Source: Granulosicoccus antarcticus IMCC3135
GTDB taxonomy: Bacteria; Pseudomonadota; Gammaproteobacteria; Granulosicoccales; Granulosicoccaceae
Direction of reading: 5' to 3'
Length of the DNA: 64,000 nucleotides
NCBI RefSeq assembly: GCF_002215215.1
Contig: NZ_CP018632.1
Coordinates: 7,622,501 to 7,686,500, forward strand
Shown here: positions 19,916-52,900 of the stretch, piece by piece
How positions within the stretch are numbered: position 1 is the first letter of the stretch
How the letters are laid out: each line of letters opens with the position of its first letter
Translations under genes and position numbers: made by a program
The notes under the pieces: generated by a model
The model's input: only the letters and a program-made list of their open reading frames with translations
What the model was told of the DNA's origin: nothing
The model's database searches: none

Positions 19916-19935
<20 letters not shown>

Positions 19936-33861: not shown

Positions 33862-34728
33862 ATGAATCACCCACACACTCTTTGTTCAGATCCTGTCGCT
33901 CTGGGTCTCTGGCATCCTATTGCCGCGCTGGAAGATTCGGCAAGCGGCGTCAGGCTCACCACCCGCTTGCTGGGTGAGAGAATTCACTACACCAAGCTCG
34001 ACGATCAGCAGGTGTCTGTTGAACACGGTGATCGCTCACTACCCGTGACGCTGGCCTATGGCTACATCTGGACCTGCATGGGCACACCCACGACCCCCTT
34101 GTTCGACTTGCCCGAATACGCCGAGTCTGACCGACGCAATGTCTGCGCAGCCACCGTCGGTGTAAAGACATCGGCACCGCGTGCAGTGGAAAACTTTCTG
34201 GACATGGGGCACTTCCCGTTTGTGCATACCGGCATCCTGGGGACAGAACCGCACACCGAGGTACGCGAGTACGAGGTCACTCTGGACGAAAAGCGTGACG
34301 AGATCCTCGCTACAGAATGCATCTTCTACCAACCGCAAGCCGCGGCAGGCGCAACCGGCGGCATCATGGCCGATTACATCTACCGTGTGCCTCACCCCTA
34401 TTGCAGCGTCTTGTACAAGTCCTGCCCCACTGATGAATCGCGTCTGGATGTCATCGCCCTGTTCCTGCAGCCGGTGGACGAGGAAACCATCAGAGCCCAT
34501 GCTCTGGTCAGCGTCATCGATGCGCAAAGCAGTGATCTGGATATCCGCATGTTCCAGCAGACCATCTTCGGTCAGGACAAGCCTATCCTCGAAAACCAGC
34601 TGCCTAAAAGACTACCGCTGGATCCACGCGCAGAAACTCCTATCAGGGCTGACAAGGCCGCTATCGTCTATCGACGCTGGCTACGCTCCAAGGGCTTGAA
34701 CTACGGGGTCATTCCTGCCGCTGCGTGA
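33862..34728 (+). CDS. NdmC-like N-demethylase catalytic subunit lacking the Rieske cluster
   Basis: 288 residues from the ATG at 33862 (a GTG at 33850 is in frame). The N-terminal region is where a Rieske domain should be (LWHPIAALEDSASGVRLTTRLLGE...), but both the CxH and CxxH cluster ligands are missing. The C-terminal catalytic domain is intact, with the mononuclear-iron motif ENFLDMGHFPFVH. This is the layout of NdmC, the 7-methylxanthine N7-demethylase subunit, which takes electrons from the Rieske domain of NdmD. The next two genes encode NdmD-like and NdmE-like proteins. Substrate is inferred: an N7-methylated purine. Confidence 0.75.
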   Translation: MNHPHTLCSDPVALGLWHPIAALEDSASGVRLTTRLLGERIHYTKLDDQQVSVEHGDRSLPVTLAYGYIWTCMGTPTTPLFDLPEYAESDRRNVCAATVGVKTSAPRAVENFLDMGHFPFVHTGILGTEPHTEVREYEVTLDEKRDEILATECIFYQPQAAAGATGGIMADYIYRVPHPYCSVLYKSCPTDESRLDVIALFLQPVDEETIRAHALVSVIDAQSSDLDIRMFQQTIFGQDKPILENQLPKRLPLDPRAETPIRADKAAIVYRRWLRSKGLNYGVIPAAA

Positions 34729-34857
34729 TATCGCATTTCGGCAATCAGCGTCAAAAAACCGTTGATTCATAAACGTAAATCTGTTTATCTTGAGTGCTTG
34801 CCAAGGCCTCTGTGCTCTCCTAACCTTCTCTCAAAAGATGCTCTCTTTTAGTGCCCT

Positions 34858-36666
34858 ATGATCGATCTTGAAGCAGCCCGATATCTCTGGCACCCGGTCG
34901 CAGCGAGTAGCGATCTTGTCTATCGGCACGTCTATCAGGCCATGATCCTGGGACGTGAGCTGGCCGTCTGGCGAGCTGACGATGGCAATGTGAATGTCTG
35001 GGAAAACCGTTGCCTGCATCGTGGCGTGCGTTTGTCTATCGGCATCAACGATGGTACCGAGCTGGTCTGTCAGTATCATGGCTGGCGCTACGCCAACCGG
35101 ACTGCAGGTTGCACCTATATACCGGCACACCCTGCCGACGCACCGGCCCGCTCTATCTGCAACAACACCTATGCGGTCGCCGAGCGCTTTGGCCTGATCT
35201 GGAGTGGTGAATCACCGGATGTCGCCCTGCCCGAGTTAGGCATGCTGGACACCAGTCACGTTACCCCACTGATGGGCATGACTCTCAACGCCCCCTTGCA
35301 TCGCGTGGCATTACCGTTGATCGAGGCCTACACGGTGCAGCATTCAACACAGATCGGCACACAAAGTGTGCGCTACGGTGCCAACACCCCCGACCCCTAC
35401 ACCATCATTTTGCATGCTGACTGCTCGCAATCCGAGTCTCCGTCACCCGATATTGCCTTTTTCCTGCAACCCATCGACTCGGGCCGCACCGCCATACGCG
35501 GTGTTCTGTGCGGCCTGGATGAGACGACAACCGACAAAGCCAGCATTACCCAGCTACTGCGCTGCCACCACCATGTGATCAACAACGTGCGACGACAGTT
35601 AGAGTCCCTGATCGCCAGCGAACCCGCTCCTGCCCCGTGGATACCCATCATCCCCACGGTCAGCGAAGCTCAGGCAGGTCTGCCACCTCTGGGCAGTTCG
35701 GGACGCAGTGCCACACAGCGCGTTCGGGTCGCAGCCATCGATACCGTGGCTCAACACATCAAGTCGTTCAGACTCGAAGCCATCAGCGTGTCTGGCGCTC
35801 TACAACTACCTGCCTCGCAACCCGGCGCCCATATCGACGTGCATTTGCCAGAAGGACTGATCCGGCAATACTCCCTGATCAACGGCCCTGGCCAGACCGA
35901 TCACTACGCCATTGCGGTCAAGGAAACTGCCGACTCCGCTGGTGGCTCCAGCGCTCTGCACCACAACATCAGAGTCGGTGACTTGCTGGCCACCTCGGCA
36001 CCACGCAACAACTTCACCCTGCGTCGTGATGCCGAGCATACGATGCTGCTTGCCGGCGGTATCGGTCTGACGCCATTACTATCGATGGCCAGAGCACTGA
36101 ATAAAATGGCTCGCCCATTTACGCTGCATTATTTTGTGACCACTGAAGACCAGATCATGTTCAGGGATGAACTGGAATCCCTGCACGGCGATGTTCAGTT
36201 CCATATAGGACTGGATCCGCAACAAACCGAACAGAAGCTGGCCACACTACTGGCCAATCCTCCTGCCCACCACCATCTCTACCTATGTGGCCCAGGCCCC
36301 ATGATGGACTGTGCCCGTGACACGGCCAGCTCCCGGGGCTGGGCAGACAACACCGTACATTTTGAGTATTTCAAAAACTTAACGACCCTGGATGACTCAT
36401 CCAGCTTTGTTGTGGAACTGGCTCGCTCAGGTTTGACGCTGCAGGTCCCGGCAGGTGAGAGTCTGCTGACGACACTGCGCCACAATGGCGTGGCCGTGCC
36501 CTCCTCCTGTGAACAGGGCTCTTGTGGCACCTGTCGTGTCAACGTGCTGGAAGGCGAACCCGATCATCAGGATGTCTATCTGAGCCAGAGCGAACAGGCC
36601 CGTGGAGATTGTCTGATGAGCTGTGTCTCCCGCGCCCGCTCTGAAAAACTGGTACTTGACCTGTGA
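34858..36666 (+). CDS. NdmD-like reductase with N-terminal Rieske domain
   Basis: 602 residues, multi-domain. Residues 1-110 form a Rieske domain with C52-L-H54 and C71-Q-Y-H74. Residues ~115-270 look like a catalytic Rieske-oxygenase domain that has lost its iron ligands (IAFFLQPIDSGRTAIRG aligns with VIALFLQPVDEETIRAH of the upstream protein). From ~290 comes an FMN/NAD reductase (RQYSLING; LLAGGIGLTPLLSMAR), then a plant-type 2Fe-2S ferredoxin with C551, C556, C559 and C589. The order Rieske-FMN-NAD-Fd is that of NdmD, the NADH-dependent reductase of methylxanthine demethylases. 129 nt after the NdmC-like gene. Confidence 0.8.
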   Translation: MIDLEAARYLWHPVAASSDLVYRHVYQAMILGRELAVWRADDGNVNVWENRCLHRGVRLSIGINDGTELVCQYHGWRYANRTAGCTYIPAHPADAPARSICNNTYAVAERFGLIWSGESPDVALPELGMLDTSHVTPLMGMTLNAPLHRVALPLIEAYTVQHSTQIGTQSVRYGANTPDPYTIILHADCSQSESPSPDIAFFLQPIDSGRTAIRGVLCGLDETTTDKASITQLLRCHHHVINNVRRQLESLIASEPAPAPWIPIIPTVSEAQAGLPPLGSSGRSATQRVRVAAIDTVAQHIKSFRLEAISVSGALQLPASQPGAHIDVHLPEGLIRQYSLINGPGQTDHYAIAVKETADSAGGSSALHHNIRVGDLLATSAPRNNFTLRRDAEHTMLLAGGIGLTPLLSMARALNKMARPFTLHYFVTTEDQIMFRDELESLHGDVQFHIGLDPQQTEQKLATLLANPPAHHHLYLCGPGPMMDCARDTASSRGWADNTVHFEYFKNLTTLDDSSSFVVELARSGLTLQVPAGESLLTTLRHNGVAVPSSCEQGSCGTCRVNVLEGEPDHQDVYLSQSEQARGDCLMSCVSRARSEKLVLDL

Positions 36667-36700
36667 ACATTTTCTCAATGAACCTGCCCCTGAAAGCCGC

Positions 36701-37342
36701 ATGATCTCACTGTACGATTACGAGTTATCGGGCAACTGCTACAAGGTTCGCCTGCTACTGAGCATGCTGGGTATTGAATACCAGACGAAGGTTGTCGAGT
36801 TCTACCCGGCAGCCGAGCATAAGCAAGCTGCTTTTCTGGCCGTCAGTCCTCTGGGAGAACTGCCGGTTCTGCAAGATGGTGAACTGATACTGCCAGACTC
36901 ACAGGCGATACTGGCCTACCTTGCTACACAGTACGACAAGTCCGGAACCTGGCATCCACAAACATCGCCAACCATTGCAGCCCAAGTCACCCAGTGGTTG
37001 TGCTTTGCCAACGCCCTAACCTCAAGCGCCTCTGCTGCGCGCCTGGCAGACGGCTTCTTCTACGATTTTGATATCGATGAATGCCGCACTCGTGCGCATC
37101 GACTGTTTCGCATTCTGGATGAACATCTGTGGCTTCAGGAACGTGACAAGCAGAACTGGCTAGTCAATGGTGATGCACCCACCATTGCTGATATTGCCTG
37201 CTTTCCTTACATCATTCTCTCAGAAGAGGGTGGCATTTCCCGCATGGATTACCCTGCTATACGTCGATGGACCGACCGGATCAAACGCATTCCCGGCTTC
37301 ATCGTCATGCCTGGTGTTTTCCCTGCGGGTCCGGGCGCTTGA
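36701..37342 (+). CDS. GST-like protein, NdmE-like
   Basis: 213 residues from MISLYDYELSGNCYKVRLLLSMLG, a thioredoxin-fold GST N-terminus, with LGELPVLQDGELILPDSQAILAYL (the glutathione-site cis-Pro and Ser) and an all-helical C-terminal domain. In the characterised NdmCDE complex the GST-like NdmE is a structural partner that holds NdmC and NdmD together; position and order here suggest the same. It starts 34 nt after the reductase gene, and its stop overlaps the TTG start of the ABC ATPase gene. Confidence 0.75.
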   Translation: MISLYDYELSGNCYKVRLLLSMLGIEYQTKVVEFYPAAEHKQAAFLAVSPLGELPVLQDGELILPDSQAILAYLATQYDKSGTWHPQTSPTIAAQVTQWLCFANALTSSASAARLADGFFYDFDIDECRTRAHRLFRILDEHLWLQERDKQNWLVNGDAPTIADIACFPYIILSEEGGISRMDYPAIRRWTDRIKRIPGFIVMPGVFPAGPGA

Positions 37343-38856
37343 GCGCGCTACTGCAGCTGCGCGGCATTAGCAAGGCCTACCCTGCTGTCATTGCCAACGA
37401 TCAGATTGATCTGGACATACAACGTGGCGAAATCCACGCCATTTTAGGTGAGAACGGTGCGGGTAAATCCACACTGATGAAACTCATCTATGGTGTCAGC
37501 CAACCCGATGAAGGTCAGATCCTCTGGCAGGGCCAGCCAGTGAGTATCCGTAGCCCATCGCAAGCTCGCAGTCTTGGCATCGGCATGGTTTTCCAGCATT
37601 TCTCATTATTCGAATCCCTGACGGTTGCCCAGAACATTGCCTTGGCTGTGAAGGGTTCCATCAAATCACTTTCCGCTCAGGTGGAAGAGGTGGGAGAACG
37701 CTTCGGACTGCCTTTGTCTGCCGATACGGTAGTGCACTCACTATCAGTTGGTGAACGTCAGCGTGTCGAGATTATCCGCTGCATCCTGCAAAAGCCGAAG
37801 CTGCTGATCATGGATGAACCTACCTCTGTACTACCACCACAGGGTGTACAGCAATTGTTTGAAACCCTGCGCACACTGCGCGAGGATGGTTGCAGCATCT
37901 TGTACATCAGCCACAAGCTGGATGAAATACGCCAACTGTGTGACAACGCCACTATTCTCAGAGCTGGCAAAGTGGTGGGCAGCACCCAGCCTGCCAGCCA
38001 GAGTAACGAGTCATTAGCACGCATGATGATAGGTCGGACCATCGATCCACCGGCCCATGCACCCGCGGTACCCGATAGCCGCATAAGACTGTCAATTCAA
38101 AATCTACAACACGAACCGATCGATCCCTTCGGCACGACCTTGAAGAAGGTGTCTCTGCAAGTCAGCCCCGGTGAGATCGTTGGCATCGCCGGTGTCTCGG
38201 GCAATGGCCAGAACGAGCTGATGCGCCTGATATCCGGCGAAGTACTTTTTGCGGGTAAAGACATCGGTGACATACGCTTTGATGACACATCAATCAAAAC
38301 CCTGCCACCCACAAAACGCCGACTGATGGGCCTGGGCTTTGTACCAGAGGAACGGCTGGGACGAGGCGCGGTTCCCGATCTGTCACTGGCCTATAACGCA
38401 CTACTGACTGCCTACCGGCATGGACTGACCAAATTGGGCATGATCCGCTTTGGCGCCATGCATCGGTTTGCGCAGGATTGCATCGAGGATAACGATGTGC
38501 GCTGCGGCGGCATTCAATCGATGGCTGGCAGCCTGTCGGGTGGCAATCTGCAGAAGTTCATTGTTGGCCGGGAAATGGCCTTGCAACCCACTTTGCTGGT
38601 GTTGTCACAACCCACCTGGGGACTGGATGTGGGCGCTGCCAACAATATCCGTACAGCCCTGCTGAAAATGCGCGATCAGGGTGCCGCCGTTCTGGTGGTC
38701 TCCGAAGAGCTGGAGGAGTTGTTTGAAATCAGTGATCGTTTGCATGTCATGTACGACGGCAATCTTTCACCTTCGCTGCAGACGCGCGACACCAGCTCGA
38801 CCCAGATTGGTCGCTGGATGACTGGTGAGTTTCTGCATGAGTCAGGAGCCGCATAA
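37339..38856 (+). CDS. BMP-type purine/nucleoside ABC transporter, ATP-binding protein
   Basis: 505 residues from the TTG at 37339 inside the overlap TTGA with the upstream gene. Two nucleotide-binding domains: the first has Walker A GENGAGKST, signature LSVGERQRVEI and Walker B LLIMDEPTSVL; the second has a degenerate Walker A (GVSGNGQNEL), LSGGNLQK and LLVLSQPTWGLDVG. This double-NBD form energises the two permeases encoded next. Similar systems import purine nucleosides or bases with a BMP-family binding protein. The longer frame from 37267 is rejected because it would overlap the GST-like gene widely. Confidence 0.88.
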   Translation: MSALLQLRGISKAYPAVIANDQIDLDIQRGEIHAILGENGAGKSTLMKLIYGVSQPDEGQILWQGQPVSIRSPSQARSLGIGMVFQHFSLFESLTVAQNIALAVKGSIKSLSAQVEEVGERFGLPLSADTVVHSLSVGERQRVEIIRCILQKPKLLIMDEPTSVLPPQGVQQLFETLRTLREDGCSILYISHKLDEIRQLCDNATILRAGKVVGSTQPASQSNESLARMMIGRTIDPPAHAPAVPDSRIRLSIQNLQHEPIDPFGTTLKKVSLQVSPGEIVGIAGVSGNGQNELMRLISGEVLFAGKDIGDIRFDDTSIKTLPPTKRRLMGLGFVPEERLGRGAVPDLSLAYNALLTAYRHGLTKLGMIRFGAMHRFAQDCIEDNDVRCGGIQSMAGSLSGGNLQKFIVGREMALQPTLLVLSQPTWGLDVGAANNIRTALLKMRDQGAAVLVVSEELEELFEISDRLHVMYDGNLSPSLQTRDTSSTQIGRWMTGEFLHESGAA

Positions 38857-39923
38857 TGGCCTACCGAATCGTTGCTCGCACCCAGACCTCATTAAAAGCA
38901 CAGTTGCTGGTGCCTCTGGCAGCCGTGGTGCTGACGCTCATAGCAGGCTCCATCCTGTTCACGCTGCTGGGTAAAAACCCACTGGCAGCATTTTACGCCT
39001 TCTTCATCGAACCGCTGACAACGCAATACGGTATTGGCGAGGTGCTGCTCAAGACTGGCCCCTTACTGCTTATTGCCCAAGGCCTGGCTATCGGCTTTCG
39101 GGCACGTGTCTGGAATATCGGCGCCGAGGGTCAGCTGCTGGCAGGCGCCATGGCAGCGGGTGCGCTGGCTCTGCATTTCGAGGATTCAGAATCCGCCTGG
39201 TTGCTGCCGGCCATGGTCTGTATCGGCACCCTGGCAGGAGCGGCCTGGGCGGGCATTGCCGCCTGGCTGCGCACCCAGTTCAACGCCAACGAGATACTGG
39301 TGACCTTCATGCTCTCCAGTATTGCACTACAACTGCTGTACTTTCTGGTCAGCGGCCCCTTGCGTGACCCCATGGGCATGAGCTACCCACAATCAGCCCT
39401 GTTTGGCGATGCGGCCCTGTTTGCCCCTTTGATTGAACATACCCGCGTCAACTCCTCTTTGTATCTGGCACTGGGCGCCTCTGTACTGGCCTGGGTATTC
39501 GTGCAACGCAGTTTGCCCGGCTACAAACTGCTGGTGGGAGGTCAGGCGCCGCATGCCGCACGCTACGCAGGCTTTGCCGAGAAAAAGGCTGTCTGGGTCG
39601 GCTTGTTGATCGGTGGCGCGGCGGCCGGTATGGCAGGTGTTGGTGAGGTAGCAGGACCGCTGGGCTTGTTGCAACGATCCATCTCTCCAGGCTACGGCTT
39701 CGCAGCCATTATCGTCGCCTTCCTGGGTGGACTACACCCTATCGGTATCGTCTTCGCAGCGTTTTTCATGGCGCTGATCTACGTGGGCGGCGATATGTCG
39801 CTGGTCTCGGTCGGGCTACCTAATGCCTCCACCACCATTTTTCAGGGCATGCTGCTGGTGTTCTATCTGGCTTGCTTTCTGTTTGCCAATCACCGCTTGC
39901 AAAAAGTCGAGGTTCGTCACTGA
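38856..39923 (+). CDS. ABC transporter permease 1 (BMP/nucleoside type)
   Basis: 355 residues with about nine hydrophobic helices. It contains the EAA-like cytoplasmic segment GFRARVWNIGAEGQLLAGA and the loop GGQAPHAARYAGFAEKK, both typical of the NupB/YufP-type permease. The ATG at 38856 overlaps the TAA of the ATPase gene by one base, and the stop overlaps the next permease start, so the genes are strongly coupled. Confidence 0.88.
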   Translation: MAYRIVARTQTSLKAQLLVPLAAVVLTLIAGSILFTLLGKNPLAAFYAFFIEPLTTQYGIGEVLLKTGPLLLIAQGLAIGFRARVWNIGAEGQLLAGAMAAGALALHFEDSESAWLLPAMVCIGTLAGAAWAGIAAWLRTQFNANEILVTFMLSSIALQLLYFLVSGPLRDPMGMSYPQSALFGDAALFAPLIEHTRVNSSLYLALGASVLAWVFVQRSLPGYKLLVGGQAPHAARYAGFAEKKAVWVGLLIGGAAAGMAGVGEVAGPLGLLQRSISPGYGFAAIIVAFLGGLHPIGIVFAAFFMALIYVGGDMSLVSVGLPNASTTIFQGMLLVFYLACFLFANHRLQKVEVRH

Positions 39924-40846
39924 TGCTCGACTCACTTACATTCTTGATCGCTGGCACCCTGGCCGCCGCCACCCCCTTGCTGTTTGCCGCCATGGGCGAG
40001 GCGGTGGTTGAAAAGTCCGGTGTATTGAACCTGAGTATCGAAGGCATGATGGCGGTCGGTGCCGCCACAGGCTTTGCTGTGACGACACTCAGTGGCTCCT
40101 ATGTCAGCGGCTTTGCCATGGCAGCGCTGGCCAGTGCGGCTCTGTCGGTGATCTTCGCCTGTCTGGTGCTGGTGTTTCTGGCCAATCAGGTAGCAGCAGG
40201 TCTGGCTGTGGGCATATTGGGTCTGGGCGCATCGGTTCTGATTGGCAAGAACTACGAGAGCCGCACCATCAGCCCCCTTGATGGACTGGAGCTGGGCTGG
40301 CTGTCGGACCTGCCCGTGCTGGGTGAGGTGCTTTTTTCGCATGACATCATGCTCTATGCGGGCATTGCCACCACCTTGTTTGTCTGGTGGGTACTGAATC
40401 ACTCCAAGCTTGGCCTGATCATACGAGCGGTGGGCGAGTCTCCCAAAGCTGCCAGCGCCATTGGCTATCCGGTGATCCTGATCCGTTTTCTGGCCATCGC
40501 CTTCGGTGGCGCCATGGCGGGTCTGGGTGGCGCCTATCTGACACTGGCCTACACCCCGTTATGGGCGGAAGGTCTGGTGGCAGGTCGTGGCTGGATTGTT
40601 ATCGCTCTGGTGGTATTCGGTATGTGGCAACCCCTGCGTATCGCCATTGGTGCCTATCTCTTCGGTGCTGTCTCACTGCTTGAACTGTTCATTCAGGGTC
40701 AGGGCTTTGCCATTCCCTCGCAGCTCATGTCTGCCATGCCCTACATCATTACCATCATCATTCTGGCCGTCATGTCGCGCAATCCGCGACTGATCCGACT
40801 TAACCATCCGGCCTCATTGGGCCAGCCCTACCACCGGGACGCCTGA
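39923..40846 (+). CDS. ABC transporter permease 2 (BMP/nucleoside type)
   Basis: 307 residues from the ATG at 39923, which overlaps the previous TGA. Signature segments: AAMGEAVVEKSGVLNLSIEGMM and VGESPKAASAIGYPV (permease loop), with eight to nine helices. Pairs with permease 1 as a heterodimer. The TAC-like end is followed by a 41-nt gap to the binding-protein gene. Confidence 0.88.
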   Translation: MLDSLTFLIAGTLAAATPLLFAAMGEAVVEKSGVLNLSIEGMMAVGAATGFAVTTLSGSYVSGFAMAALASAALSVIFACLVLVFLANQVAAGLAVGILGLGASVLIGKNYESRTISPLDGLELGWLSDLPVLGEVLFSHDIMLYAGIATTLFVWWVLNHSKLGLIIRAVGESPKAASAIGYPVILIRFLAIAFGGAMAGLGGAYLTLAYTPLWAEGLVAGRGWIVIALVVFGMWQPLRIAIGAYLFGAVSLLELFIQGQGFAIPSQLMSAMPYIITIIILAVMSRNPRLIRLNHPASLGQPYHRDA

Positions 40847-40887
40847 TTACCCATTTCTTCTTTCTTTAAAGCAACTGGCATCAACAC

Positions 40888-41982
40888 ATGAAAAACTGGA
40901 CTGACCGTATACGCACCACAGCCATGGCTGTCACGGTGGCACTCGGCCTCGGTGCCACGAAGGCACAGGCGCAGGACGCCTTCACCATCGGCTATATCTA
41001 CCCCTCTCCGGCAACCGATGTCGGCTGGGCACACGAGCTGGATCGTGGTCGTCAAGCCATCGAAGAAAAGTTTGGTGACAAGGTCAAGAGCATCGTTGTC
41101 GAGAACATTCAGGACGGTCCGGATGCTGCTCGCATCATGAATCAGATGGCCGCCTCTCAGGGCGTCGATATGATGGTGCTCGGATCCTTTGGTTATATGA
41201 ACGATGGCCTGAAAATCGCCAAGCGTTATCCCGATATCGATTTCATCCACGCCAGCGGTTACAAGACTTCCAAGAATTTCTCCACCTTCCTGACGCGCAA
41301 TCATGAAAGCGCCTATGTAGCTGGCATGGCGGCAGGCTATGTCACAAAATCCAACACCATCGGTGTGGTGGCAGCCTATGCCATTCCTGAAGTGGTCGGC
41401 ATCATCAATGGTTTTACTCTGGGTGCCCAGGCAACCAATCCGGAGATCACCGTCAAGGTTGTCTGGCTGAACTCCTGGTTCGACCCCAGCAAGGCGCAGG
41501 AATCTGCCCGCTCACTGATCGCACAGCAATCCGACGTTCTTTTTTCCGTCTATCAGGACACACCTTCAGTGGTCTCGGTCGCCGAAGAGGAAGGCGTTTA
41601 TGTGGTCAATACCAGTTCCGACATGAAAGCCTATGCGCCTGAACATCTGCTGGCTTCCATGCAGATCTCATGGGCAGACTATTTCATCGAACAGGTGCAG
41701 GCATCCATGGATGACACCTTTGCAGGCAGTGCTTTCTGGGGCGGCATGGCAGACAAGGCCGTCAGCGTCGAGTCTTTGAGCGATGATCTGAGCGAAGAGC
41801 AACGTGCCACACTGGATGCGACCATCGCCGACATCACCAGTGGCGTGCTGAGCCCTTTTGTAGGTCCTGTGTTCGATCAGGACGGCGTAGAAAAAGTAGC
41901 GATAGGCGAAAACTTGAGTGACAACGACTTGCTGAGCATCAGCTGGTTGGTGACAGGCATCGAAACCAAACTACCCAAGTAA
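40888..41982 (+). CDS. BMP family substrate-binding protein
   Basis: 364 residues. A signal peptide (MAVTVALGLGATKAQA, cleavage before QDAF) precedes a basic-membrane-protein (BMP/PnrA) domain: FTIGYIYPSPATDVGWAHELDRG, DMMVLGSFGYMN, YPDIDFIHASGY, GVVAAYAIPEVVGIINGFTLGA and FSVYQDTPSVV. BMP proteins bind purine nucleosides or related bases, fitting the neighbouring demethylase and guanine deaminase. No lipobox, so it is likely a free periplasmic protein. Confidence 0.88.
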   Translation: MKNWTDRIRTTAMAVTVALGLGATKAQAQDAFTIGYIYPSPATDVGWAHELDRGRQAIEEKFGDKVKSIVVENIQDGPDAARIMNQMAASQGVDMMVLGSFGYMNDGLKIAKRYPDIDFIHASGYKTSKNFSTFLTRNHESAYVAGMAAGYVTKSNTIGVVAAYAIPEVVGIINGFTLGAQATNPEITVKVVWLNSWFDPSKAQESARSLIAQQSDVLFSVYQDTPSVVSVAEEEGVYVVNTSSDMKAYAPEHLLASMQISWADYFIEQVQASMDDTFAGSAFWGGMADKAVSVESLSDDLSEEQRATLDATIADITSGVLSPFVGPVFDQDGVEKVAIGENLSDNDLLSISWLVTGIETKLPK

Positions 41983-42010
41983 TCAATCCAGACAGGCCTC
42001 TCCATTCTGA

Positions 42011-43396
42011 ATGACTGAACAAATGACATCACAACATGCTCAGTCAGACAGCTGGCATCTGGGTCTGTTCATGCATATGCCCCGCATGAGCAGACTCGAG
42101 GTGCTGGAGAACACACTGATCCAGGTCGATGCTCTTGGCAGCATTGTCTCGCTCACCCGTCCGGATGAGCCTGAATACACAGAACGCCTGCACACTGCTC
42201 GACGCAGTGGTGCACTGACCGAAATGAGTTCCCAGCAGATGATGATCCCCGGACTGGTGGATCTGCATGTGCATGCGCCTCAATGGCCGCAACTGGGCAA
42301 GGCTTTGCACCTACCCTTGCAGGACTGGTTGAACCACTACACCTTTCCGCTGGAAGCACGCTATCAGGATATTGATTTTGCCCGGCAAGTCTATCCGTCT
42401 CTGGTGCGTGCCCTGCTGGCCAATGGCACAACCACAGCCATGTATTTTGCCACTGTGCATGAAGAGGCCACCGAATTGCTCGCAGCCACCTGCCTGGCTC
42501 TTGGTCAGCGCGCCTATGTAGGTCGCGTAGCCATGGACGATCCTCAGCAGTGCCCGGATTATTATCGCGACAGCGATGCACAAGCAGCCGTTGCCGCCTC
42601 GGAGCGCAGCATCCATGCAATCAGACAACTATCGGGCAATCAGAACCAGCTGGTAAAGCCTGTTATTACACCCCGTTTCATACCCAGCTGCACCAACGAC
42701 TTGCTGGCAGGTCTGGGCGAGCTGGCAGCACGCCATCAATGCCATGTTCAGACGCATTGCTCGGAGAGTGACTGGGAACATGATTACGTGCTGAACCGAC
42801 TGGGCAAGACCGACACCCAGGCACTGGCAGATTTTGGCCTGCTGAACCGGCACACCGTGCTGGCACATTCCAACTTCATCACTGACAGTGATATGGGCCG
42901 GATACAGGAAGCCGGCAGCGGCATCGCTCATTGCCCCTTGTCCAACAGCTATTTCGCGGACAGTGTTTTTCCCTTGCGTAGAGCACTCGACAAGTCATTA
43001 CGAGTGGGGCTAGGCACCGATATCGCAGGCGGTCATAGCGCCTCCTTGTTCAATACCTGTCAGCATGCCGTGGCCTCATCGCGCATGCTTGAATCCGGTG
43101 TCGATGCGCGACTGCCTGCCGCTGAGCGAGGGCAAGCCAACGCTCGCATCAACTTTCTGGAAGCCTTCTATCTGGCAACGGCCGGTGGCGCTGATGTGCT
43201 TGATAGCCCCACGGGTTTGTTCGAGCCAGGCAGGCAGTTTGATGCCCTGCTGTTGGATCTTGACTGTCCTGAGAATCGATTGAACGAGTTCACCCGGGCC
43301 AATGACTGGGAGGATCTACTGGGCTGTGTGGTCTATAATACGCAGCCATGCAATATCGGCAGAGTCTGGATCGACGGGCGTTGTGTTCATGGCTGA
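42011..43396 (+). CDS. guaD: Guanine deaminase
   Basis: 461 residues. It is an amidohydrolase with zinc ligands in MIPGLVDLHVHAPQWPQLG, HCQVQTHCSESDWE (described; H and E of the substrate site), TVLAHSNFI, and the catalytic Asp in VGLGTDIAGGHSASLF. FPLEARYQDIDFARQVY is a guanine-deaminase-specific segment. It converts guanine to xanthine. It starts 28 nt after the BMP gene, closing the operon; with the N7-demethylase it could handle guanine or 7-methylguanine. The stop lies 4 nt from the end of the convergent Crp/Fnr gene. Confidence 0.9.
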   Translation: MTEQMTSQHAQSDSWHLGLFMHMPRMSRLEVLENTLIQVDALGSIVSLTRPDEPEYTERLHTARRSGALTEMSSQQMMIPGLVDLHVHAPQWPQLGKALHLPLQDWLNHYTFPLEARYQDIDFARQVYPSLVRALLANGTTTAMYFATVHEEATELLAATCLALGQRAYVGRVAMDDPQQCPDYYRDSDAQAAVAASERSIHAIRQLSGNQNQLVKPVITPRFIPSCTNDLLAGLGELAARHQCHVQTHCSESDWEHDYVLNRLGKTDTQALADFGLLNRHTVLAHSNFITDSDMGRIQEAGSGIAHCPLSNSYFADSVFPLRRALDKSLRVGLGTDIAGGHSASLFNTCQHAVASSRMLESGVDARLPAAERGQANARINFLEAFYLATAGGADVLDSPTGLFEPGRQFDALLLDLDCPENRLNEFTRANDWEDLLGCVVYNTQPCNIGRVWIDGRCVHG

Positions 43397-43400: not shown

Positions 43401-44078
43401 TTACCAGCGATCGGGTAAGTCCTTGTGGATTTTCACGCAATGGCTTTCGATTGAAATATAACCACCAACCCGAAGTTCCTTGAGAATCTTGCTGATCATC
43501 TCCCGGCTTGATCCGACCCGACTGGCCAATTCCTGATGGGTGACTCTTTCTGTAATACGTGTGCCATCTTCCTGTTCGGATGCCGATGAATTCAGGGCAC
43601 GTACCAGACGACCATAAACATCCATTAATGCCAGACAACTGACATCTTCTGTCATACCACGGATGCGCCCCACCAGAGAGTGAATAATGGCTTGTGCCAC
43701 CAGAGGTTCTTTCAGAATTTCGTGAGTGATATCGGCACTGGGTACGACAAGACAATGACAGGCGCTGGTTGTAATCACATTAGCGGTGCGGGTGTGACCA
43801 TCCAGTAGTCCCAACTCACCGAAGCACTCGCCTGAGGAAAACGTGCCAACGATGAATTCGTTGCCATCGTCATCATCGATAAAGGCATAGGCGGTGCCTT
43901 GCAACAGTACATAGGCCGCATGACTCTCTTCGCCTGCCACAATAATATGTGTGTTCTTCCTGAACTTGCGCAGTGTTGAAGCGCGTTCCAGGTTCGCAAT
44001 GGCGGCTTCAGGAAAGGCCTTGAAAAAATCCACATCTGACAGTGAGGGCAGACTATCGACCGCTTTCAGCTTTCCCAT
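43401..44078 (-). CDS. Crp/Fnr-family transcriptional regulator
   Basis: 225 residues. The cyclic-nucleotide-binding fold has FSSGECFGELGLLDGHTRTANV (the phosphate-binding-cassette position, with HTRTA in place of RxA). A winged helix has RVTHQELASRVGSSREMISKILKEL. No cysteine cluster typical of Fnr is present, so it is closer to the Crp side. It converges on guaD, 4 nt apart. Whether it controls the purine operon is not shown by the sequence. Confidence 0.87.
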   Translation of the reverse strand: MGKLKAVDSLPSLSDVDFFKAFPEAAIANLERASTLRKFRKNTHIIVAGEESHAAYVLLQGTAYAFIDDDDGNEFIVGTFSSGECFGELGLLDGHTRTANVITTSACHCLVVPSADITHEILKEPLVAQAIIHSLVGRIRGMTEDVSCLALMDVYGRLVRALNSSASEQEDGTRITERVTHQELASRVGSSREMISKILKELRVGGYISIESHCVKIHKDLPDRW

Positions 44079-45037: not shown

Positions 45038-45571
45038 ATGCAAAAAATTGCAGAAATTGATCTACCTGTCCATTCCGACAAGATCAATATAAATGAGTCT
45101 CGGAACTCAGCCTTACCAGCCCCTGTGCACGGAGTCCTGATCGGGGTATTGGCAACACTCAATCAAATGGGTCAACCTAGTGTTACCTATGCCGGAAATC
45201 ACACAGCACGACCGGTACTGGCCAAGTCAACAACCTTGATACCTACCGATGCCATCGGCAAGAAAGTCGCCCTTCTGTTCGAAAACGGTGACATCACTCT
45301 GCCCATTGTCATCGGCATCTTGCAGGAGCCTTGCACAACAGCGCCAGTGCTCAGCACCATCGAGGACGACACGATTCACCCGGCGCAGAGCGAACTCATC
45401 GTGGACGGACGTCCAATAGACCTTCAGGCACGCGAACAGATTATCTTGCGCTGCGGAAAATCCAGCATCACAATGACCAGTGCTGGCAAAATCATTATCC
45501 GTGGAACTTATGTTTCAAGTAAATCGTCGGGAGCCAATCGCATCCGCGGCGGTTCGGTACAGATAAACTGA
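45038..45571 (+). CDS. DUF6484-domain protein, T6SS-associated
   Basis: 177 residues. The core shows HGVLIGVLATLNQMGQPSVTYAG and IGKKVALLFENGDITLPIVIG, followed by LIVDGRPIDLQAREQIILRCGKSSITM, an arrangement I associate with DUF6484 proteins that accompany T6SS effector-loading genes. The C-terminal segment resembles the beta-helical end of VgrG-type spike extensions (GKIIIRGTYVSSKSSGANRIRGG). It is the first of five consecutive genes in the cluster. Confidence 0.7.
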   Translation: MQKIAEIDLPVHSDKININESRNSALPAPVHGVLIGVLATLNQMGQPSVTYAGNHTARPVLAKSTTLIPTDAIGKKVALLFENGDITLPIVIGILQEPCTTAPVLSTIEDDTIHPAQSELIVDGRPIDLQAREQIILRCGKSSITMTSAGKIIIRGTYVSSKSSGANRIRGGSVQIN

Positions 45572-45588
45572 GGGCAGCACCTGCCCTC

Positions 45589-46845
45589 ATGCCGCACATT
45601 ATCGAGACCGTTGTGTACCAGCATGCAGAGAATGCCTGTGCACTTTGGTGGCAATGGCATCTGGCGCTTGACCAACCACACTATACATTGGGGGATCTGA
45701 CAGGGATTGAAAAGCGAATCAATGCCAATATGAACGGTCTGCGCATTGCTGGCAAAAACGCCTTGATACAGGTACAGGAACTGGCTGATGCCAACGATGA
45801 GGGAGCCATTTTCGTCTCGGCACTGCTTGCGATTCAGCGTGGCGATATATCAGGCTTTCTCACACTTGCAGAGACTGACTGCGTAAAGCCGGGCGGACTT
45901 GCCGAGCTGAGCACGGCACTGGCATGGGCCGATCATGATCAGTCGCAACGTATCATTCTGCAACTGCTGAACAGCGACAGAGCCGAGTGGTTGATTCTGG
46001 GCCTACAGGCCTGTGTGGCTCACGCGCGCAATCCAGGTCAGCATTTGTATCAATGTACCAGACACAGCGATAGTCGTGTTCGTGCCACAGCCTTTCAGGC
46101 CGCAGCTAACCTGGGCGACAAGAACATATTGCGAACCTTGCCAGTATCCACCCCGGGTGGGCCAGACGAGCAGTTTGAACTCGCACGTGCCTTTACCTTT
46201 CTGGGACGCTACAAGGAAGGTCAACTCATGCTCGAACAACTGGCTCTGGGCTCAAGTCACGTTGCGCCTCTGGCTACCAGGCTATTTCTGTTGAGTGCCT
46301 CTTCTGCCATAAGTCGCGACTTGCTCAGAACCCTGAACGATCGTCCAGAGCGTGCTCGAGATGTGGTTCGAGGCTTTGGCCTGCTGGGCGAGCCAACCTC
46401 GATGGAATGGTTGATCGATCAGTGTCACTCTCCCATGCTTGGCCGGTTGGCTGGGGAATCCATTACGTTGATCACGGGTGTGGACTTGATCAACAACGAT
46501 CTGGAACTTGCCGATGGACCTGAAACGGCGATCAACGCGCTCAGTGACGAGCCTGACGATAAGCGCGTAAAACTCGATGAGGATGACAACCTACCCTGGC
46601 CGGATGCACCCCGCATCAGCCACTGGTGGGAGAACCTGTCCGCACAGCCTATCAACGACAAGCAATATCTCTGCGGGCACCTGCGCACATCCAAGAGCTA
46701 CCAACTCATGCTCAGAATCGGCAAGCAGAGACAGCGAACTATCGCCGCTGACATCATGGCTTTGACTAATCCCGGCGCACCGTATTGCAATACGCATTTG
46801 CCCACGTGGCGCCAACCGGGCCTCACGCCAGGTGGACCCGACTGA
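45589..46845 (+). CDS. TIGR02270-family HEAT-like repeat protein
   Basis: 418 residues, all-helical, starting MPHIIETVVYQHAENACALWWQWH. It contains repeats such as GLQACVAHARNPGQHLYQC and VRATAFQAAANLGDKNILRTLP that resemble HEAT-type scaffolds, and the C-terminus ends in LPTWRQPGLTPGGPD. Proteins of this family occur in T6SS accessory sets, where an adaptor role is plausible but not proven. 17 nt after the DUF6484 gene. Confidence 0.72.
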   Translation: MPHIIETVVYQHAENACALWWQWHLALDQPHYTLGDLTGIEKRINANMNGLRIAGKNALIQVQELADANDEGAIFVSALLAIQRGDISGFLTLAETDCVKPGGLAELSTALAWADHDQSQRIILQLLNSDRAEWLILGLQACVAHARNPGQHLYQCTRHSDSRVRATAFQAAANLGDKNILRTLPVSTPGGPDEQFELARAFTFLGRYKEGQLMLEQLALGSSHVAPLATRLFLLSASSAISRDLLRTLNDRPERARDVVRGFGLLGEPTSMEWLIDQCHSPMLGRLAGESITLITGVDLINNDLELADGPETAINALSDEPDDKRVKLDEDDNLPWPDAPRISHWWENLSAQPINDKQYLCGHLRTSKSYQLMLRIGKQRQRTIAADIMALTNPGAPYCNTHLPTWRQPGLTPGGPD

Positions 46846-46846
46846 C

Positions 46847-47947
46847 ATGCGACTACTCAACCACACACCCTTTCTGGCAGCGTACACCCTGGGCCTGGCT
46901 CCCGATGGTCGAGAATCGGTCGTGGTCGTCATCAAGGCCACGTTTTCCATACCCACCTCATACTATGCTCATCCTGAACTACTGGACGAACAAGTTGCGC
47001 TGGTAGAGGCAGACATTCACACAGCTGAGCCTGAATCTTCAGCCCCTCTGTATGAAGCGGACTATGCCTTGGGAAAGCCACGCTGCGACGTTACCCTCAT
47101 TGGCTCGGCCTATGCCCCCAACGGCAACCCTGCTGAACGAGTACAAACCGGTCTGTCAGTCGGGCAGATCAACAAATTTATCAACGTCATCGGTGAACGT
47201 CACTGGATGAGTAATACAACGTGCGTTGTGACTAGTCAGCCACGTACTTTTCAGATGGCCACGATCAGCTATGACATGGCCTTTGGCGGCACTGACAAAG
47301 CGCATGAAGACAAGCGCTTCCATGATGCCTTCATGCTCAACCCTGTCGGCATCGGCTTTCATCGGGCTGTGCTTCACAATCTGGTTGATGGCACGCCTGC
47401 CCCCTCTACAGAGATGCCCGACCAACCCGTCATGCAACCTAATGGCGTCTACAAGCCCATGTCTTTTGGACCTGTCGGGCGCGCTTGGCAACCAAGAATC
47501 CAGTACGCCGGCACTTATGACGATACCTGGCTTGATGAGCAATTCCCCTTCCTGCCGACGGACTTCGACAATCGCTATTACCAGAGTGCACCTGCCGACC
47601 AGCAGACAAACTACCTTCAGGGCGGTGAGGAGGTAACTCTGGTAAACCTGACGCCCGAGGGCTTATGTCGTTTTCGTATTCCGACCCTGGAGATGCCCGT
47701 CTGTTTCTTCAAGAAAAAATCGGTCCGTGAATACAGACAGGCTGTGATTGACACACTGGTCATTGAACCGGACCAGAGCCGCTTCAGCATGACGTGGCGC
47801 GCCACCCAACTTTTACAATCAAACATCTTTGAAATTCCTGAGGTCATTATTGGAAAATTTCCGCAAACCAGAGGCATAGCCAAACCGCACATCTCTTCAC
47901 TGGCAGAACCGGGCAAAAACCGAAACACCACGGATGAGACGCTGTGA
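46847..47947 (+). CDS. DUF2169 protein, T6SS effector-loading adaptor type
   Basis: 366 residues from MRLLNHTPFLAAYTLG, one base after the upstream stop. Family landmarks: VVVIKATFSIP, DYALGKPRCDVTLIGSAYAPNG, ISYDMAFGGTD, NPVGIGFH and GPVGRAWQPRIQYAGTYDDTWLDEQFPFLP, as in DUF2169. DUF2169 proteins are thought to help mount PAAR/DUF4150-containing effectors on the T6SS spike. The gene overlaps the next start (GTGAATA at 47944). Confidence 0.85.
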   Translation: MRLLNHTPFLAAYTLGLAPDGRESVVVVIKATFSIPTSYYAHPELLDEQVALVEADIHTAEPESSAPLYEADYALGKPRCDVTLIGSAYAPNGNPAERVQTGLSVGQINKFINVIGERHWMSNTTCVVTSQPRTFQMATISYDMAFGGTDKAHEDKRFHDAFMLNPVGIGFHRAVLHNLVDGTPAPSTEMPDQPVMQPNGVYKPMSFGPVGRAWQPRIQYAGTYDDTWLDEQFPFLPTDFDNRYYQSAPADQQTNYLQGGEEVTLVNLTPEGLCRFRIPTLEMPVCFFKKKSVREYRQAVIDTLVIEPDQSRFSMTWRATQLLQSNIFEIPEVIIGKFPQTRGIAKPHISSLAEPGKNRNTTDETL

Positions 47948-48966
47948 ATACTCTCATCACCATTACCGGCTCAGGCATGGTCACCGCTGTAGGCAATGAC
48001 GCTGCCTCCAGCTGTGCCGCTATTCACTGTGCCATCGACAACTTCCGTGAAAGTCAGTTCATGGATAACGCAGGGGAACCGATCACAACAGCCGCCTGCG
48101 AGCTGGACGAACCCTGTAGCGGTGAGACCCGGCTGGTCAAGATGGCGGCGGCGGCGCTGGCAGAATGCCTTGCTTCAAACTCGGCCATCGACTGCAAACA
48201 CACCCCTTTGATTCTGTGTCTTCCTGAACGCTCCCGACAGGACTACCCCATCAGTGATGATGCTGCTTTTTTCCTGGCTATTCAGGAGGAGCTGGGATTG
48301 GGCTTCTCTGACAAATCACGATTACTGGCGCATGGACATGTGTCCGCCGCCGTAGCGTTACTCAATGCAAGACAAATGCTGGCCAACAATCAGAGCGTGA
48401 AACATGTACTGATTGCCTCTGCAGACTCTCTGCTAAGCACAGCAACGCTGCAGCATTTTGAAGACAACGACAGATTACTCACTAGTGAGCATTCAGACGG
48501 TATATTACCTGGCGAAGCTGCTGCGGCAATTGTGGTCGAGCGCGCCAGAGGTAATCGCGGGGCAATGCTCGTTCATGGCATTGGATTTGCCGTGGAACCC
48601 GCGCCCATACTATCCGGCAAACCAACTCAGGCACAAGGTTTGACGCAGGCCATCAAGGCCGCACTTGAAGAGGCACAGCTGCCCATGCAGGAAATGGCTT
48701 ACCGGATCACTGATCTTTCTGGCGAGCACTACTACTTCAGGGAAGCCGCCCTGGCATTATCCAGAACGCTGAGAGTCTTGCGAGATGAGTTCGACATACT
48801 TCACCCAGCAGACTGTGTTGGTGAAACAGGTACTGCCCTTGGCTTTATCATTCTTGGCTATCAACTGGATCTAATCAGAACTCACCCCCCTGACTTTCCC
48901 CAACTGATCGCGCACTTCAGCAACGACGATGGCAGACGCGCTGCCATTGTTCTTGGCATGAATTAG
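47944..48966 (+). CDS. Ketosynthase-like protein without catalytic cysteine, T6SS-associated
   Basis: 340 residues from a GTG overlapping the DUF2169 stop. The fold resembles beta-ketoacyl synthases (ITITGSGMVTAVGNDAASSCAAI at the N-terminus; ILPGEAAAAIVVERA; GETGTALGFI). In the position of the usual Cys motif it reads LAHGHVSAAVALL (residues ~128-140), so the nucleophile is absent. Such pseudo-ketosynthases are recurrent in DUF2169/DUF4150 loci. A structural or chaperone role is inference. Confidence 0.75.
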   Translation: MNTLITITGSGMVTAVGNDAASSCAAIHCAIDNFRESQFMDNAGEPITTAACELDEPCSGETRLVKMAAAALAECLASNSAIDCKHTPLILCLPERSRQDYPISDDAAFFLAIQEELGLGFSDKSRLLAHGHVSAAVALLNARQMLANNQSVKHVLIASADSLLSTATLQHFEDNDRLLTSEHSDGILPGEAAAAIVVERARGNRGAMLVHGIGFAVEPAPILSGKPTQAQGLTQAIKAALEEAQLPMQEMAYRITDLSGEHYYFREAALALSRTLRVLRDEFDILHPADCVGETGTALGFIILGYQLDLIRTHPPDFPQLIAHFSNDDGRRAAIVLGMN

Positions 48967-48977
48967 GAGAACACAGC

Positions 48978-49478
48978 ATGGCCAGCAACGTTTACGTCAA
49001 TGGTCGAAAGATTGTCTGCAAAAAAGCTGGCGGAAAATCAATCTGTGCGTTCCCCGATGTCTGCTTTACGCCACCCGACAAGATCACCTCCACCCCAAAG
49101 GGCATTCCTGTGCCCTATCCGAACACCGGCGCAGCATCCGATCTGACTAACGGTTCTAAAAGCCTAAAAATTGGCAACAAGGAAGTAGCGCTTAAAAACA
49201 AGTCATATTTAAAGAAATCTGCAGGTAACGAGACCGGTAATACTCAAAAGAAAGGTGTGCTGACTCGCACCAACCGCGGCAAGGTCTTCTTCAATAGCTG
49301 GTCCATGAATGTCAAGATCGAAGGCCTGAATGCTGTCAGGCATCTGGATATCACCACCCATAACCACGGCTCATTGCCAGGTAACTCTCCGACATGGTCC
49401 TATCTGGACCAAGCCACTGCTATCCGCACCGCTACAGATATAGACATATCAACCTCGGATGAAGAAAGCCTTTTATGA
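48978..49478 (+). CDS. DUF4150 (PAAR-like) protein
   Basis: 166 residues. The family signature is clear: SNVYVNGRKIVCKKAGGKSICAFPDVCFTPP, then GIPVPYPNTGAASDLTNGSKSLKIGNKEV, and a conserved FNSWSMNVKIEGLNAVRHLDITTHNHGS. DUF4150 domains cap the T6SS spike and are usually fused to, or followed by, a toxin. Here the protein ends soon after the domain (28 residues beyond), and no toxin gene follows. Confidence 0.85.
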   Translation: MASNVYVNGRKIVCKKAGGKSICAFPDVCFTPPDKITSTPKGIPVPYPNTGAASDLTNGSKSLKIGNKEVALKNKSYLKKSAGNETGNTQKKGVLTRTNRGKVFFNSWSMNVKIEGLNAVRHLDITTHNHGSLPGNSPTWSYLDQATAIRTATDIDISTSDEESLL

Positions 49479-49985
49479 AGGCGTAGCTGCAGCGAAAGCT
49501 ATTTTGCTATTCATACGTTCATAAGCCCTTCTGCTAGTTTTTTCCTTTCTCTTCTCCCGAGCCTTTCTCTTCTGCTCGCGCAGTGCTTTAGAAGAGCACG
49601 AAACGCAAATTCTTCGTCAGTACAAATCTGTTGCTGCAAGGACCCTGCGCGCTTGAACAGAACGAAACGCGTTACATAACACTGCCAGCAGGTTACTGAT
49701 TTTGCTCACCACAAAACGGTGTTTTTCTTCGATCAATCCGTATATATAGCGCCAATTACGCCTGAATTTGCTGCAAATACACTCAAACTACCGAGTCTTG
49801 GTCCAGGAATTCATAGGTTAGTAAATTTTCCGACAGGCATATGCGTTGCTGTTCTGCTAACGGCACAAGGGATATTTATCGCCGGGCTCTCTTTCGAAGA
49901 AGAAATAGAAGTCACAAACCAAGACATTAATACAGCTCTGGAGAATTATTATTTTTCCAGGTTGAAAAATACGGAAAAAAACAGA
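49479..49985 (+). other. Region between the T6SS set and the giant repeat protein
   Basis: No convincing gene. The reading frame of the giant protein is open from 49680, but the sequence (FFFDQSVYIAPITPEFAANTL..., LSFEEEIEV) precedes the signal peptide and has no good start, so I do not include it. Between 49560 and 49679 the same frame has a Cys-rich stretch ended by TAA at 49677. A decayed effector gene would be expected at this position, but I cannot recognise one. Confidence 0.35.
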
Positions 49986-52900
49986 ATGCACCCATTGCTC
50001 GCGGCCCTCTGCCGACTGGTAATCTTTGCAGTATTTCTAAACTTCTCGTCGATAGCGATAGCTGTCGATTCCGACGGTGATGGCATTCAGAACAACTATG
50101 ATCTGGATGACGACAACGACGGTATCCTCGATGAAGATGAAATTGCCTGCACCGCCAGTGGGCAACTGTCCTGGACACATGACACGCTCTTCGATGCCCT
50201 TGGCAACCTCCTGGGCAATGTCGGTATCGATGCAGCCATTGGTGACGCTATTTCGGCAACCGTTGATCTGTCCATCGGAGCGGGCCTCGACCGGCAAATC
50301 AACCTTGTAGAATACCTACTCAGTGGTGCCTCTTCACTGACACTCGATGCTGCAATAACTAATGATGACTACATCGAAGTAGGACTGACACTCAACCAGG
50401 ACTCCTACCTCTACGGCTCTGGCATCAGCATCACATCCACACTACTAGGCGGTCTTTCGGCAGGTGATTATGAGTTTGCAGCCAAGATTTCCAGCGACAA
50501 CTTTGTATCCTCATCACGGCTCTTCGACAACGGTTTTCTGGAAAGTCCTTTGGTCGACTTACTGGGTTCTACCAGTAGCCAGTCGTTCAGTCCGTTTCCT
50601 CTAGAGGCAAACGTTGACTACAAGATTCGCGTGTATCTGTTCAACGTTCAGAATGATGTTTCCATATCCGTCCAGATTCCTTTAGTCGGCACGATTACCT
50701 TGCCTGATTTAGTCAGCTTCGGTGATCTTCAGCTGCAAATCGGCGCTGCTTGCCTCTCTGATTCAGATGCTGACCTCATTGCCAACAGCGAAGATATCGA
50801 CTCTGATAACGACGGAATTATTGATAATATCGAAGGCCAAACAAGTGTTGGCTATGCTGCACCATTGGGTATTGATACCGACCTTGACGGCCTCGATAAC
50901 GCCTATGACAGCGACAACGGTGGCACACCTGTCAGCCTGCCTGATACCGATGCTACTGGCCCACCTGATTACCTGGATACCGATAGCGACGGCGATGGTG
51001 TTCCTGATGCGATAGAAGGCTATGACGTCAATGGTGACGGAGTGGCAGAAACACTGGCGGCCCCGGGCAATGCTGATGCCGACGCCGATGGACTCAATGA
51101 CAACTACGACACCGTAATCTTTCCTGCAACTGGCAATGAAACTGGCGCCAACGCGCCTCTGCCCAACAGCGATGGAACCGATGCCAGCGATTGGCGTGAT
51201 ACCGACGATGACAATGACGGATCATTGACAGCCTCGGAAGATACAAACAGCAACGGCAACCCACAGGATGACGACGCCGATGCTGACGGCAAGCCAGATT
51301 ACCTGGAATCATCAAGCGCCGATGCGGATGGCGACGGTGTGTTTGATCAATCCGATTCCAATGATGCGGATGTCTGTGCACCGACTACCTTCGGAATCGG
51401 CTGCACCACGGATACAGACGGGGATGGGACACCTGACAGTACAGAAGGTGCGACTACCGATACGGACGACGATGGCATCAAGGATCATGCAGAATCATCC
51501 GCCGTTGATTCCGATGGTGACGGTGTCAACAATCAGAATGATGCAGCCAATAATAACGCCTGCATCCCTTCAGTCTTTGGCAACAACTGCACAACGGATA
51601 CTGACGGTGATGGCACCGCTGATAGTGTCGAAGGTGAAAACGTTGACACCGATGGTGATGGTATTAATGATCATGCTGAATCATCCACCGCCGACGATGA
51701 TGGTGATGGCGTCAGTAATCAGGACGAATCTTCAACCGCAGATGCGGATGGTGATGCCATCAATGACCAGGATGATGCGCATAACGATGATGCCTGCAAG
51801 CCTTCTGTCTATGCTGACGCTTGCAACATCGATACTGATGGCGATGGCATTCAGAACAATCATGATCTGGATGATGACAACGACGGCATACTTGACGAGG
51901 ACGAGATGTCCTGCACGGTCACCGGCCAGCTGTCCTGGTTGCATGATGTGCTTATCGGTGTTCTGGGTAATGCCACGATCGATGTCAGCATCGATGATTC
52001 TGTCTCTGCCACCGCTGACCTGACGGTCGGACCGGGCCTTACCAAACTGGTTAATGCCGCTGAGTATCTACTCGGTGGTGCGACCTCACTGACCCTGAGT
52101 GCGGCCAAGTCGTCCGATGACTACATCGAAGTCGGCCTGACACTCGGTCAGGATTCCTATCTGCATGGCTCCAGCCTGGGCATCATATCGACAGTGCTTG
52201 GTGGTGTGGCTGCAGCAGATTATGAATTTGCAGCAGAAATTTCCATCGACGACTTTGTCTCTGCATCAGTTCTCTTTGACACAGAGTTACTGTCAGCGCC
52301 TTTACTCGGCCTGGGCTCTAGTAGCGAACAGGCGTTCAGTCCCTATTTCCTGCAGGCAGGCATTGCCTACAAGATTCGTGTGTATCTGTTCAATGAGCAG
52401 AACGATAATCTGACACCCGGCGTTGCCAGCTTTGGTGACCTGCAACTACGAATCGGTACCGCCTGCATCTCGGATACAGATGCGGATCTTATCAGCAATA
52501 GCGAAGATATCGACTCGGACAACGATGGCATTGTCGATAATATCGAAGCTCAAACAAGCGCTGACTACCAGGTGCCACTAGGCACCGATACAGATTCTGA
52601 CGGGCTGGACGATGCCTATGACAGCGATAACGGTGGCACACCGGTCACTCTGCCCAATTCTGATGCAACAGGTCTGGCAGATTTTCTGGATACCGATAGT
52701 GACGACGACGGAATCTCTGATGCGGTCGAAGCCTACGACGCTAACGGCGATGGCGTGGCCGATACATTGCCCGCGTCTGACAATGCCGATGCGGATACCG
52801 ATGGACTGAACGACAACTATGACACCATCGTCTCACCCGCAGCGGGCAATGCGACCGGTGCCAACGCACCGCTACCCAACAGTGATGGCACTGATGCCAG

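Follow-up and report, generated by a model that had tools for sequence, protein, structure and literature searches.

What is a split Rieske oxygenase, built like the NdmCDE demethylase of the caffeine pathway, used for when its genes are followed by those of an importer and a guanine deaminase? The question is raised by a locus in the genome of Granulosicoccus antarcticus IMCC3135 (a single contig of 7.78 Mb), namely in its 64-kb stretch at positions 7622501–7686500, which was analysed here as a whole and is called the window below. Eight plus-strand genes (33862–43396 in window numbering), separated by gaps of at most 129 bp, encode, in this order, the proteins designated C, D, and E, an ATP-binding cassette (ABC) transporter ATPase, two permeases, a BMP/PnrA-like protein, and a guanine deaminase named GuaDop here. 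The first-pass annotation of this DNA covered C-D-E and likened it to the demethylase of the caffeine pathway; the BMP-type ABC importer and the guanine deaminase extend the operon beyond that. Judging by the sequence, there is about an even chance that the operon enables the cell to take up and degrade an N-methylated guanine, with 7-methylguanine (or its nucleoside) from RNA or DNA turnover as the likeliest compound. Methylated guanine is favored over caffeine because of the operon context, i.e., the guanine deaminase and the BMP-type importer.

The oxygenase part of the operon displays a single structural plan distributed between two chains. The C protein (288 aa) has the VanA_C catalytic domain as its sole Pfam match; its iron-site residues D114, H117, H122, and D239 are invariant, and the 2-His-1-Asp site is intact. 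According to the profile alignment, C has lost the loops of the Rieske cluster but retains the strands with which the Rieske domain begins, and the model of C (pLDDT 87.5) matches the fold of whole Rieske oxygenases. The D protein (602 aa) harbors the Pfam domains Rieske, FAD_binding_6, NAD_binding_1, and Fer2, the Rieske ligands being C52, H54, C71, and H74. Its residues 1–283 were modeled and also match the fold of Rieske oxygenases, whereas the reductase part was assigned by sequence. The iron-less middle domain of D, a homolog of the catalytic domain of C, aligns with whole Rieske oxygenases; taken alone, residues 133–251 align with the protein 1vjh, which presumably possesses a helix-grip fold. 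The first-pass annotation had described a first protein with the mononuclear-iron motif and no Rieske ligands, a second one with a Rieske cluster, an iron-less oxygenase-like middle part, and a full reductase, reciprocal domain loss between the two, and a gene resembling glutathione S-transferase (GST) after them. All of this was borne out, and the profile and structure comparisons support C and D as one oxygenase plan with reciprocal loss of domains. The split represents an example of an oxygenase broken into catalytic and electron-transfer paralogues. The fold is common, over both domains, with SxtT/GxtA and NdmA/NdmB, although in these enzymes a single intact chain bears both metal sites.

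The resulting build is that of NdmCDE from Pseudomonas putida CBB5: C carries the 2-His-1-Asp site without a Rieske cluster, the Rieske domain of D is fused to a reductase of the flavin mononucleotide (FMN)/nicotinamide adenine dinucleotide (NAD)/plant-type 2Fe-2S type, and a GST-like subunit is encoded alongside. The sequence comparison with the CBB5 system was made for C, which is 48% identical to CBB5 NdmC (P0248, bearing the UniRef label “Methylxanthine N7-demethylase”). The abstract of the original 2013 paper on NdmCDE reportedly notes a wider occurrence of such clusters. Both the split architecture and ndmCDE homologs from Sinorhizobium and Mesorhizobium whose function is unknown have already been published (PMC4408171, excerpt), and the characterized NdmCDE is a 360-kDa, 3:3:3 complex specific for 7-methylxanthine (PMC10380055, excerpt).

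Kinship was assessed in a tree of 54 C-type rows comprising 47 split C proteins and seven intact oxygenases, with SxtT/GxtA outside the row set and a program warning of long branches where the intact outgroup joins. All 47 split rows, CBB5 NdmC included, form one clade (support 99/99) apart from the intact enzymes. Within it, the window C sits among Granulosicoccaceae, close to the rhizobial C2 and Devosia C proteins, and outside the CBB5 NdmC subclade: the branch holding CBB5 NdmC (94/85) takes in 27 of the 47, and the group of seven to which CBB5 NdmC itself belongs is supported at 100/99. Thus, the NdmCDE-like build claimed by the first-pass annotation stands, as does the grouping of C with CBB5 NdmC in preference to the intact Rieske oxygenases compared, but the caffeine pathway is not supported, since the subclade is a different one, no other Rieske gene occurs in the window, and the operon context points to methylated guanine.

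The same data bear on a different explanation, according to which the split oxygenase, like that of P. putida CBB5, is directed to purine alkaloids of plant or marine origin (7-methylxanthine, theobromine, caffeine) and the deaminase is incidental. The build of C, D, and E and the identity of C to CBB5 NdmC are in its favor, and a purine permease is also found in the caffeine-type cluster (PMC10380055, excerpt). Still, this explanation appears unlikely in view of the separate subclade of C and the lack of an NdmA/NdmB-like Rieske oxygenase nearby: among nine Rieske matches in the genome, D is alone in the window, and the others are at least 0.69 Mb away (the next one at about 0.69 Mb). The window locus further departs from the CBB5 system by lacking ndmA/ndmB within the window and by combining the split oxygenase with an importer of the BMP type and a guanine deaminase.

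The deaminase clears the curated cut-off of TIGR02967 (Table 1). Aligned with solved guanine deaminases, it retains the catalytic residues HxH, Q, PRF, H..E, H, and D. At 1.15–1.16 Mb of the same contig, far from the operon at 7.66 Mb, a canonical guanine deaminase gene (guaD, 618 bits) and a canonical xdhB (1290 bits against a cut-off of 849.5) lie roughly 1.3 kb apart. In view of its score of 406 bits and its 30% identity to the canonical enzyme, GuaDop is a second copy that looks specialized; since the canonical guaD and xanthine dehydrogenase are present elsewhere, the cell does not need the operon for guanine itself. This bears on the idea of a molybdenum-independent route from guanine via xanthine to urate, with the oxygenase hydroxylating xanthine like HpxD, a Rieske xanthine hydroxylase of purine catabolism by annotation. 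An operon of an importer, a guanine deaminase, and a Rieske oxygenase could suffice for such a route; however, the genome already has its xanthine dehydrogenase beside the canonical guanine deaminase, and the single HpxD compared is an intact oxygenase, 31% identical to C and outside the split clade. Neither the Pfam matches nor the 54-row tree revealed C to be an intact oxygenase grouping with HpxD; this route is considered very improbable.

Conservation of the gene order was followed in 80 loci kept of 255 confirmed ones, and the counts are limited to loci with enough flanking sequence. D follows C in all 71 loci with room for it, and D together with E in 63 of 63. The nearest named relatives of the window C and D belong to Granulosicoccus, and relatives are common in Granulosicoccaceae as well as in the families to which Mesorhizobium and Devosia belong. 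In the nearest loci (L012–L022; 2 of 11 left out for short sequence, at least 7.5 kb downstream being needed), the order C-D-E-importer-GuaDop is kept in nine cases out of nine; a deaminase retained so consistently is a further argument against alkaloids as the substrate, being useless for xanthine breakdown. Of the loci L023–L091, 62 have 8 kb or more of upstream sequence, and 38 of these contain a close importer, defined by an ATPase identity of at least 45%. The rhizobial ndmCDE homologs (PMC4408171, excerpt) belong to the same family, the window C being 61–65% identical to the nearest rhizobial C2, but differ from the window in often having a second C and importer genes in divergent orientation (accompanied by a GntR gene in the three annotated cases) and in mostly lacking a linked GuaDop. 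In the Devosia loci, C-D-E has neither a close importer nor GuaDop within the stretch examined, and no purine context was detected in Devosia-type neighborhoods (three genes scanned in each of L071 and L063 and one in L081). The homologs on P. putida and Klebsiella pneumoniae plasmids adjoin genes for a TIM-barrel protein and a 2-oxoglutarate oxygenase.

A second C adjoining the first one was encountered in 37 of the same 62 loci. Such tandem C paralogues accompanied by one D imply more than one substrate and hence speak for an N-demethylase whose main substrate is not 7-methylguanine but some other methylated purine (1-methylguanine, N2-methylguanine, methyladenines, or a mixture of these). 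Consistent with it are an additional adenine-deaminase-like gene at the locus L139 (354 bits, cut-off 472) and the adenosine deaminase gene beside L109, one of the two nearest intact oxygenases. On the other hand, the sole split-clade member found with a described activity is N7-specific (PMC10380055, excerpt), and other purines as the main substrate are deemed improbable. In the rhizobial loci L009 (11086–12897), L024, and L040, the tandem C1 and C2 both have intact iron ligand sets and are accompanied by one D and one E; possibly, they represent two substrate specificities sharing one electron-delivery subunit.

Methylated guanine remains the favored substrate type, and the association of the split oxygenase with deaminases extends beyond the nearest loci. 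Among 297 genomes of the Mesorhizobium soli family (G013, L029; C at an expectation value, E-value, of 1e-60, GuaDop at 1e-100), C was found in 71, GuaDop in 33, and both in 25 (Fisher p 2e-11); in 20 of these 25, C and GuaDop are less than 5 kb apart (31 bp to 3.8 kb). Of the 136 genomes from the Devosia soli family (G035, L071; C at 1e-60, GuaDop at 1e-80), 32 had both, 39 C only, 11 GuaDop only, and 54 neither (Fisher p 4.5e-4). As for the window's own class, 6 of the 369 genomes drawn, its own genome included, had a relative of C (E-value 1e-30), two of the six being intact oxygenases.

Other deaminases occur in this position as well. The related split-oxygenase operons L095, L098, and L119, of a sister layout, contain an 8-oxoguanine-deaminase-like enzyme (368, 401, and 395 bits, respectively, all below the cut-off of 532), a GST, and a similar importer, with no GuaDop within the stretch. 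Two of them, L095 and L098 from Rhizobium leguminosarum and Qingshengfaniella, resemble the window in possessing a Rieske subunit, a C, a GST, a deaminase, and a similar importer; in contrast to it, their Rieske subunit (216 aa in L095) lacks the fused reductase, and the deaminase is of the 8-oxoguanine-deaminase-like type. L141 and L142 carry both an 8-oxoguanine deaminase at full score (603 and 620 bits) and a GuaDop (420 and 381 bits), and in L142 a third amidohydrolase, of the chlorohydrolase-like type, is encoded in the interval from C to GuaDop. On the C tree, the linked deaminase switches at least five times (26 of the 54 rows labeled, without a shuffled control). The convergence of different deaminases alongside split oxygenases is counted for a methylated guanine as the substrate.

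Several observations weigh against this substrate assignment. In the PDB, GuaDop is closest to the human, yeast, and clostridial guanine deaminases, and its catalytic residues are the same as in the canonical enzymes. A comparison of 24 GuaDop-type rows (the window protein counted twice) with 15 rows, taken as canonical by their 26–40% identity to GuaDop and not by a family score, yielded 25 alignment positions separating the two types. The pocket was considered as a sign of an N7-methyl substrate and dropped: the pattern near the metal site is like that of the human and clostridial enzymes and hence allows no conclusion on the substrate, which is inferred from the gene context. By sequence, C matches the oxygenases of the saxitoxin pathway best in the PDB (SxtDIOX/SxtT, E-value 6e-26; GxtA), and these rank above NdmA (5e-15). 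A close importer is missing from 24 of the 62 loci mentioned above (among these, L038, L054, and L078 carry an importer of greater divergence, and L056 has a fragmented match), and GuaDop is linked in only 3 of the 49 L023–L091 loci with at least 7.5 kb downstream. GuaDop is absent from 39 of the 71 C-positive genomes of the Devosia soli family, and among 45 genomes with C-D-E searched (from 46 of the 80 loci), only 18 had a close GuaDop anywhere. Finally, the Fisher tests ignore shared ancestry, so two of the three supports of this type are weaker than they appear, and the C matches in the families were not individually checked for a missing Rieske domain.

In the proposed pathway, the BMP-type ABC transporter would import the purine, and GuaDop would deaminate 7-methylguanine to 7-methylxanthine. 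The split Rieske oxygenase would then take off the N-methyl group as formaldehyde, and the resulting xanthine would pass to the ordinary xanthine dehydrogenase of the cell; the reverse order, demethylation followed by deamination, is conceivable as well. Electrons are expected to travel from NADH via FMN, the ferredoxin, and the Rieske cluster, all within D, to the iron of C. In ordinary Rieske oxygenases, they go to the iron of the neighboring subunit about 12 Å away (PMC12445004, excerpt). The iron-less domain may have been kept in D as a scaffold, so that C and D could pack like a normal trimeric oxygenase with the Rieske cluster of D beside the iron of C, and the GST subunit E may hold the complex together.

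7-Methylguanine is available from RNA caps, tRNA, rRNA, and alkylated DNA. On a wider scale, it can be tentatively suggested, with somewhat less than even confidence, that split Rieske N-demethylases are at their root a widespread bacterial means of salvaging methylated (and, together with 8-oxoguanine deaminase, oxidized) nucleobases from RNA and DNA turnover. After its import, 7-methylguanine would undergo deamination and N7-demethylation to xanthine, and the caffeine NdmC would represent a branch recruited later for plant alkaloids. The architecture and its homologs are already published; the proposed function is new relative to the open-access literature searched, where no bacterial route of 7-methylguanine breakdown was found described, judging by titles and the beginnings of abstracts. 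It would give a family of enzymes published as being of unknown function a concrete, testable role, explain why the deaminase and the purine-type importer travel with the split oxygenase, and suggest an origin for caffeine N7-demethylation.

Table 1. Features of the operon and of its oxygenase proteins (window coordinates)
Feature	Position	Strand	Basis
C, NdmC-like catalytic subunit of split Rieske oxygenase	33862..34728	+	Pfam VanA_C alone, iron ligands, profile alignment, model
D, NdmD-like fusion: Rieske, degenerate oxygenase, FMN/NAD reductase, plant-type ferredoxin	34858..36666	+	Pfam, motifs, model
Rieske [2Fe-2S] domain of D, residues 11–92	34888..35133	+	PF00355, 64.3 bits; motif
Degenerate iron-less oxygenase (helix-grip) domain of D, residues ~106–262	35173..35643	+	Homology to catalytic domain of C
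E, GST-like subunit (NdmE-like)	36701..37342	+	Pfam GST_N/GST_C
ABC transporter ATPase, BMP-linked type	37339..38856	+	Pfam ABC_tran, two stretches; start TTG 37339 or ATG 37267
ABC transporter permease 1	38856..39923	+	BPD_transp_2
ABC transporter permease 2, start codon uncertain	39923..40846	+	BPD_transp_2
BMP/PnrA-like substrate-binding protein	40888..41982	+	PF02608, 156.4 bits
GuaDop, operonic guanine-deaminase paralogue	42011..43396	+	TIGR02967, 406.3 bits (cut-off 375.4)

Some relatives of the oxygenase deserve mention in their own right. Of the intact rows, L109 and L110 are the nearest; both adjoin a BMP binding protein, and L109 (295–3657), with its adenosine deaminase neighbor, is a candidate for the unsplit ancestral form. 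On a kombucha plasmid of Komagataeibacter nataicola (L092, 6938–13489), a single cluster comprises two split-oxygenase-like sets, in which the Rieske and GST genes are separate, along with a free reductase and a full-length oxygenase.

As regards the importer, the NCBIfam designation “putative B6 transporter” was considered and left unused, all its matches being below the cut-offs. A CRP/FNR-type regulator gene on the minus strand (43401–44078), convergent with the last gene of the operon, could encode its regulator. Elsewhere in the window, mobile elements are found at 4105–5484 (minus strand), 7628–10185, 13133–14494, and 18376–20707, including a group II intron reverse transcriptase, IS66, IS110, a DDE transposase, and an IS21 istA/istB pair. 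The DUF6484, DUF2169, and Tox-PAAR-like genes at 45038–49478 (plus strand) presumably constitute an accessory cluster of type VI secretion. An open frame of at least 4760 aa (49719–63998, plus strand) runs beyond the window end and consists mostly of Asp-rich repeats of the DxDGDG type, parts of which recur in tandem with a period of 186 bp; the Met/Pro-rich open reading frames in its other frames look like artefacts.

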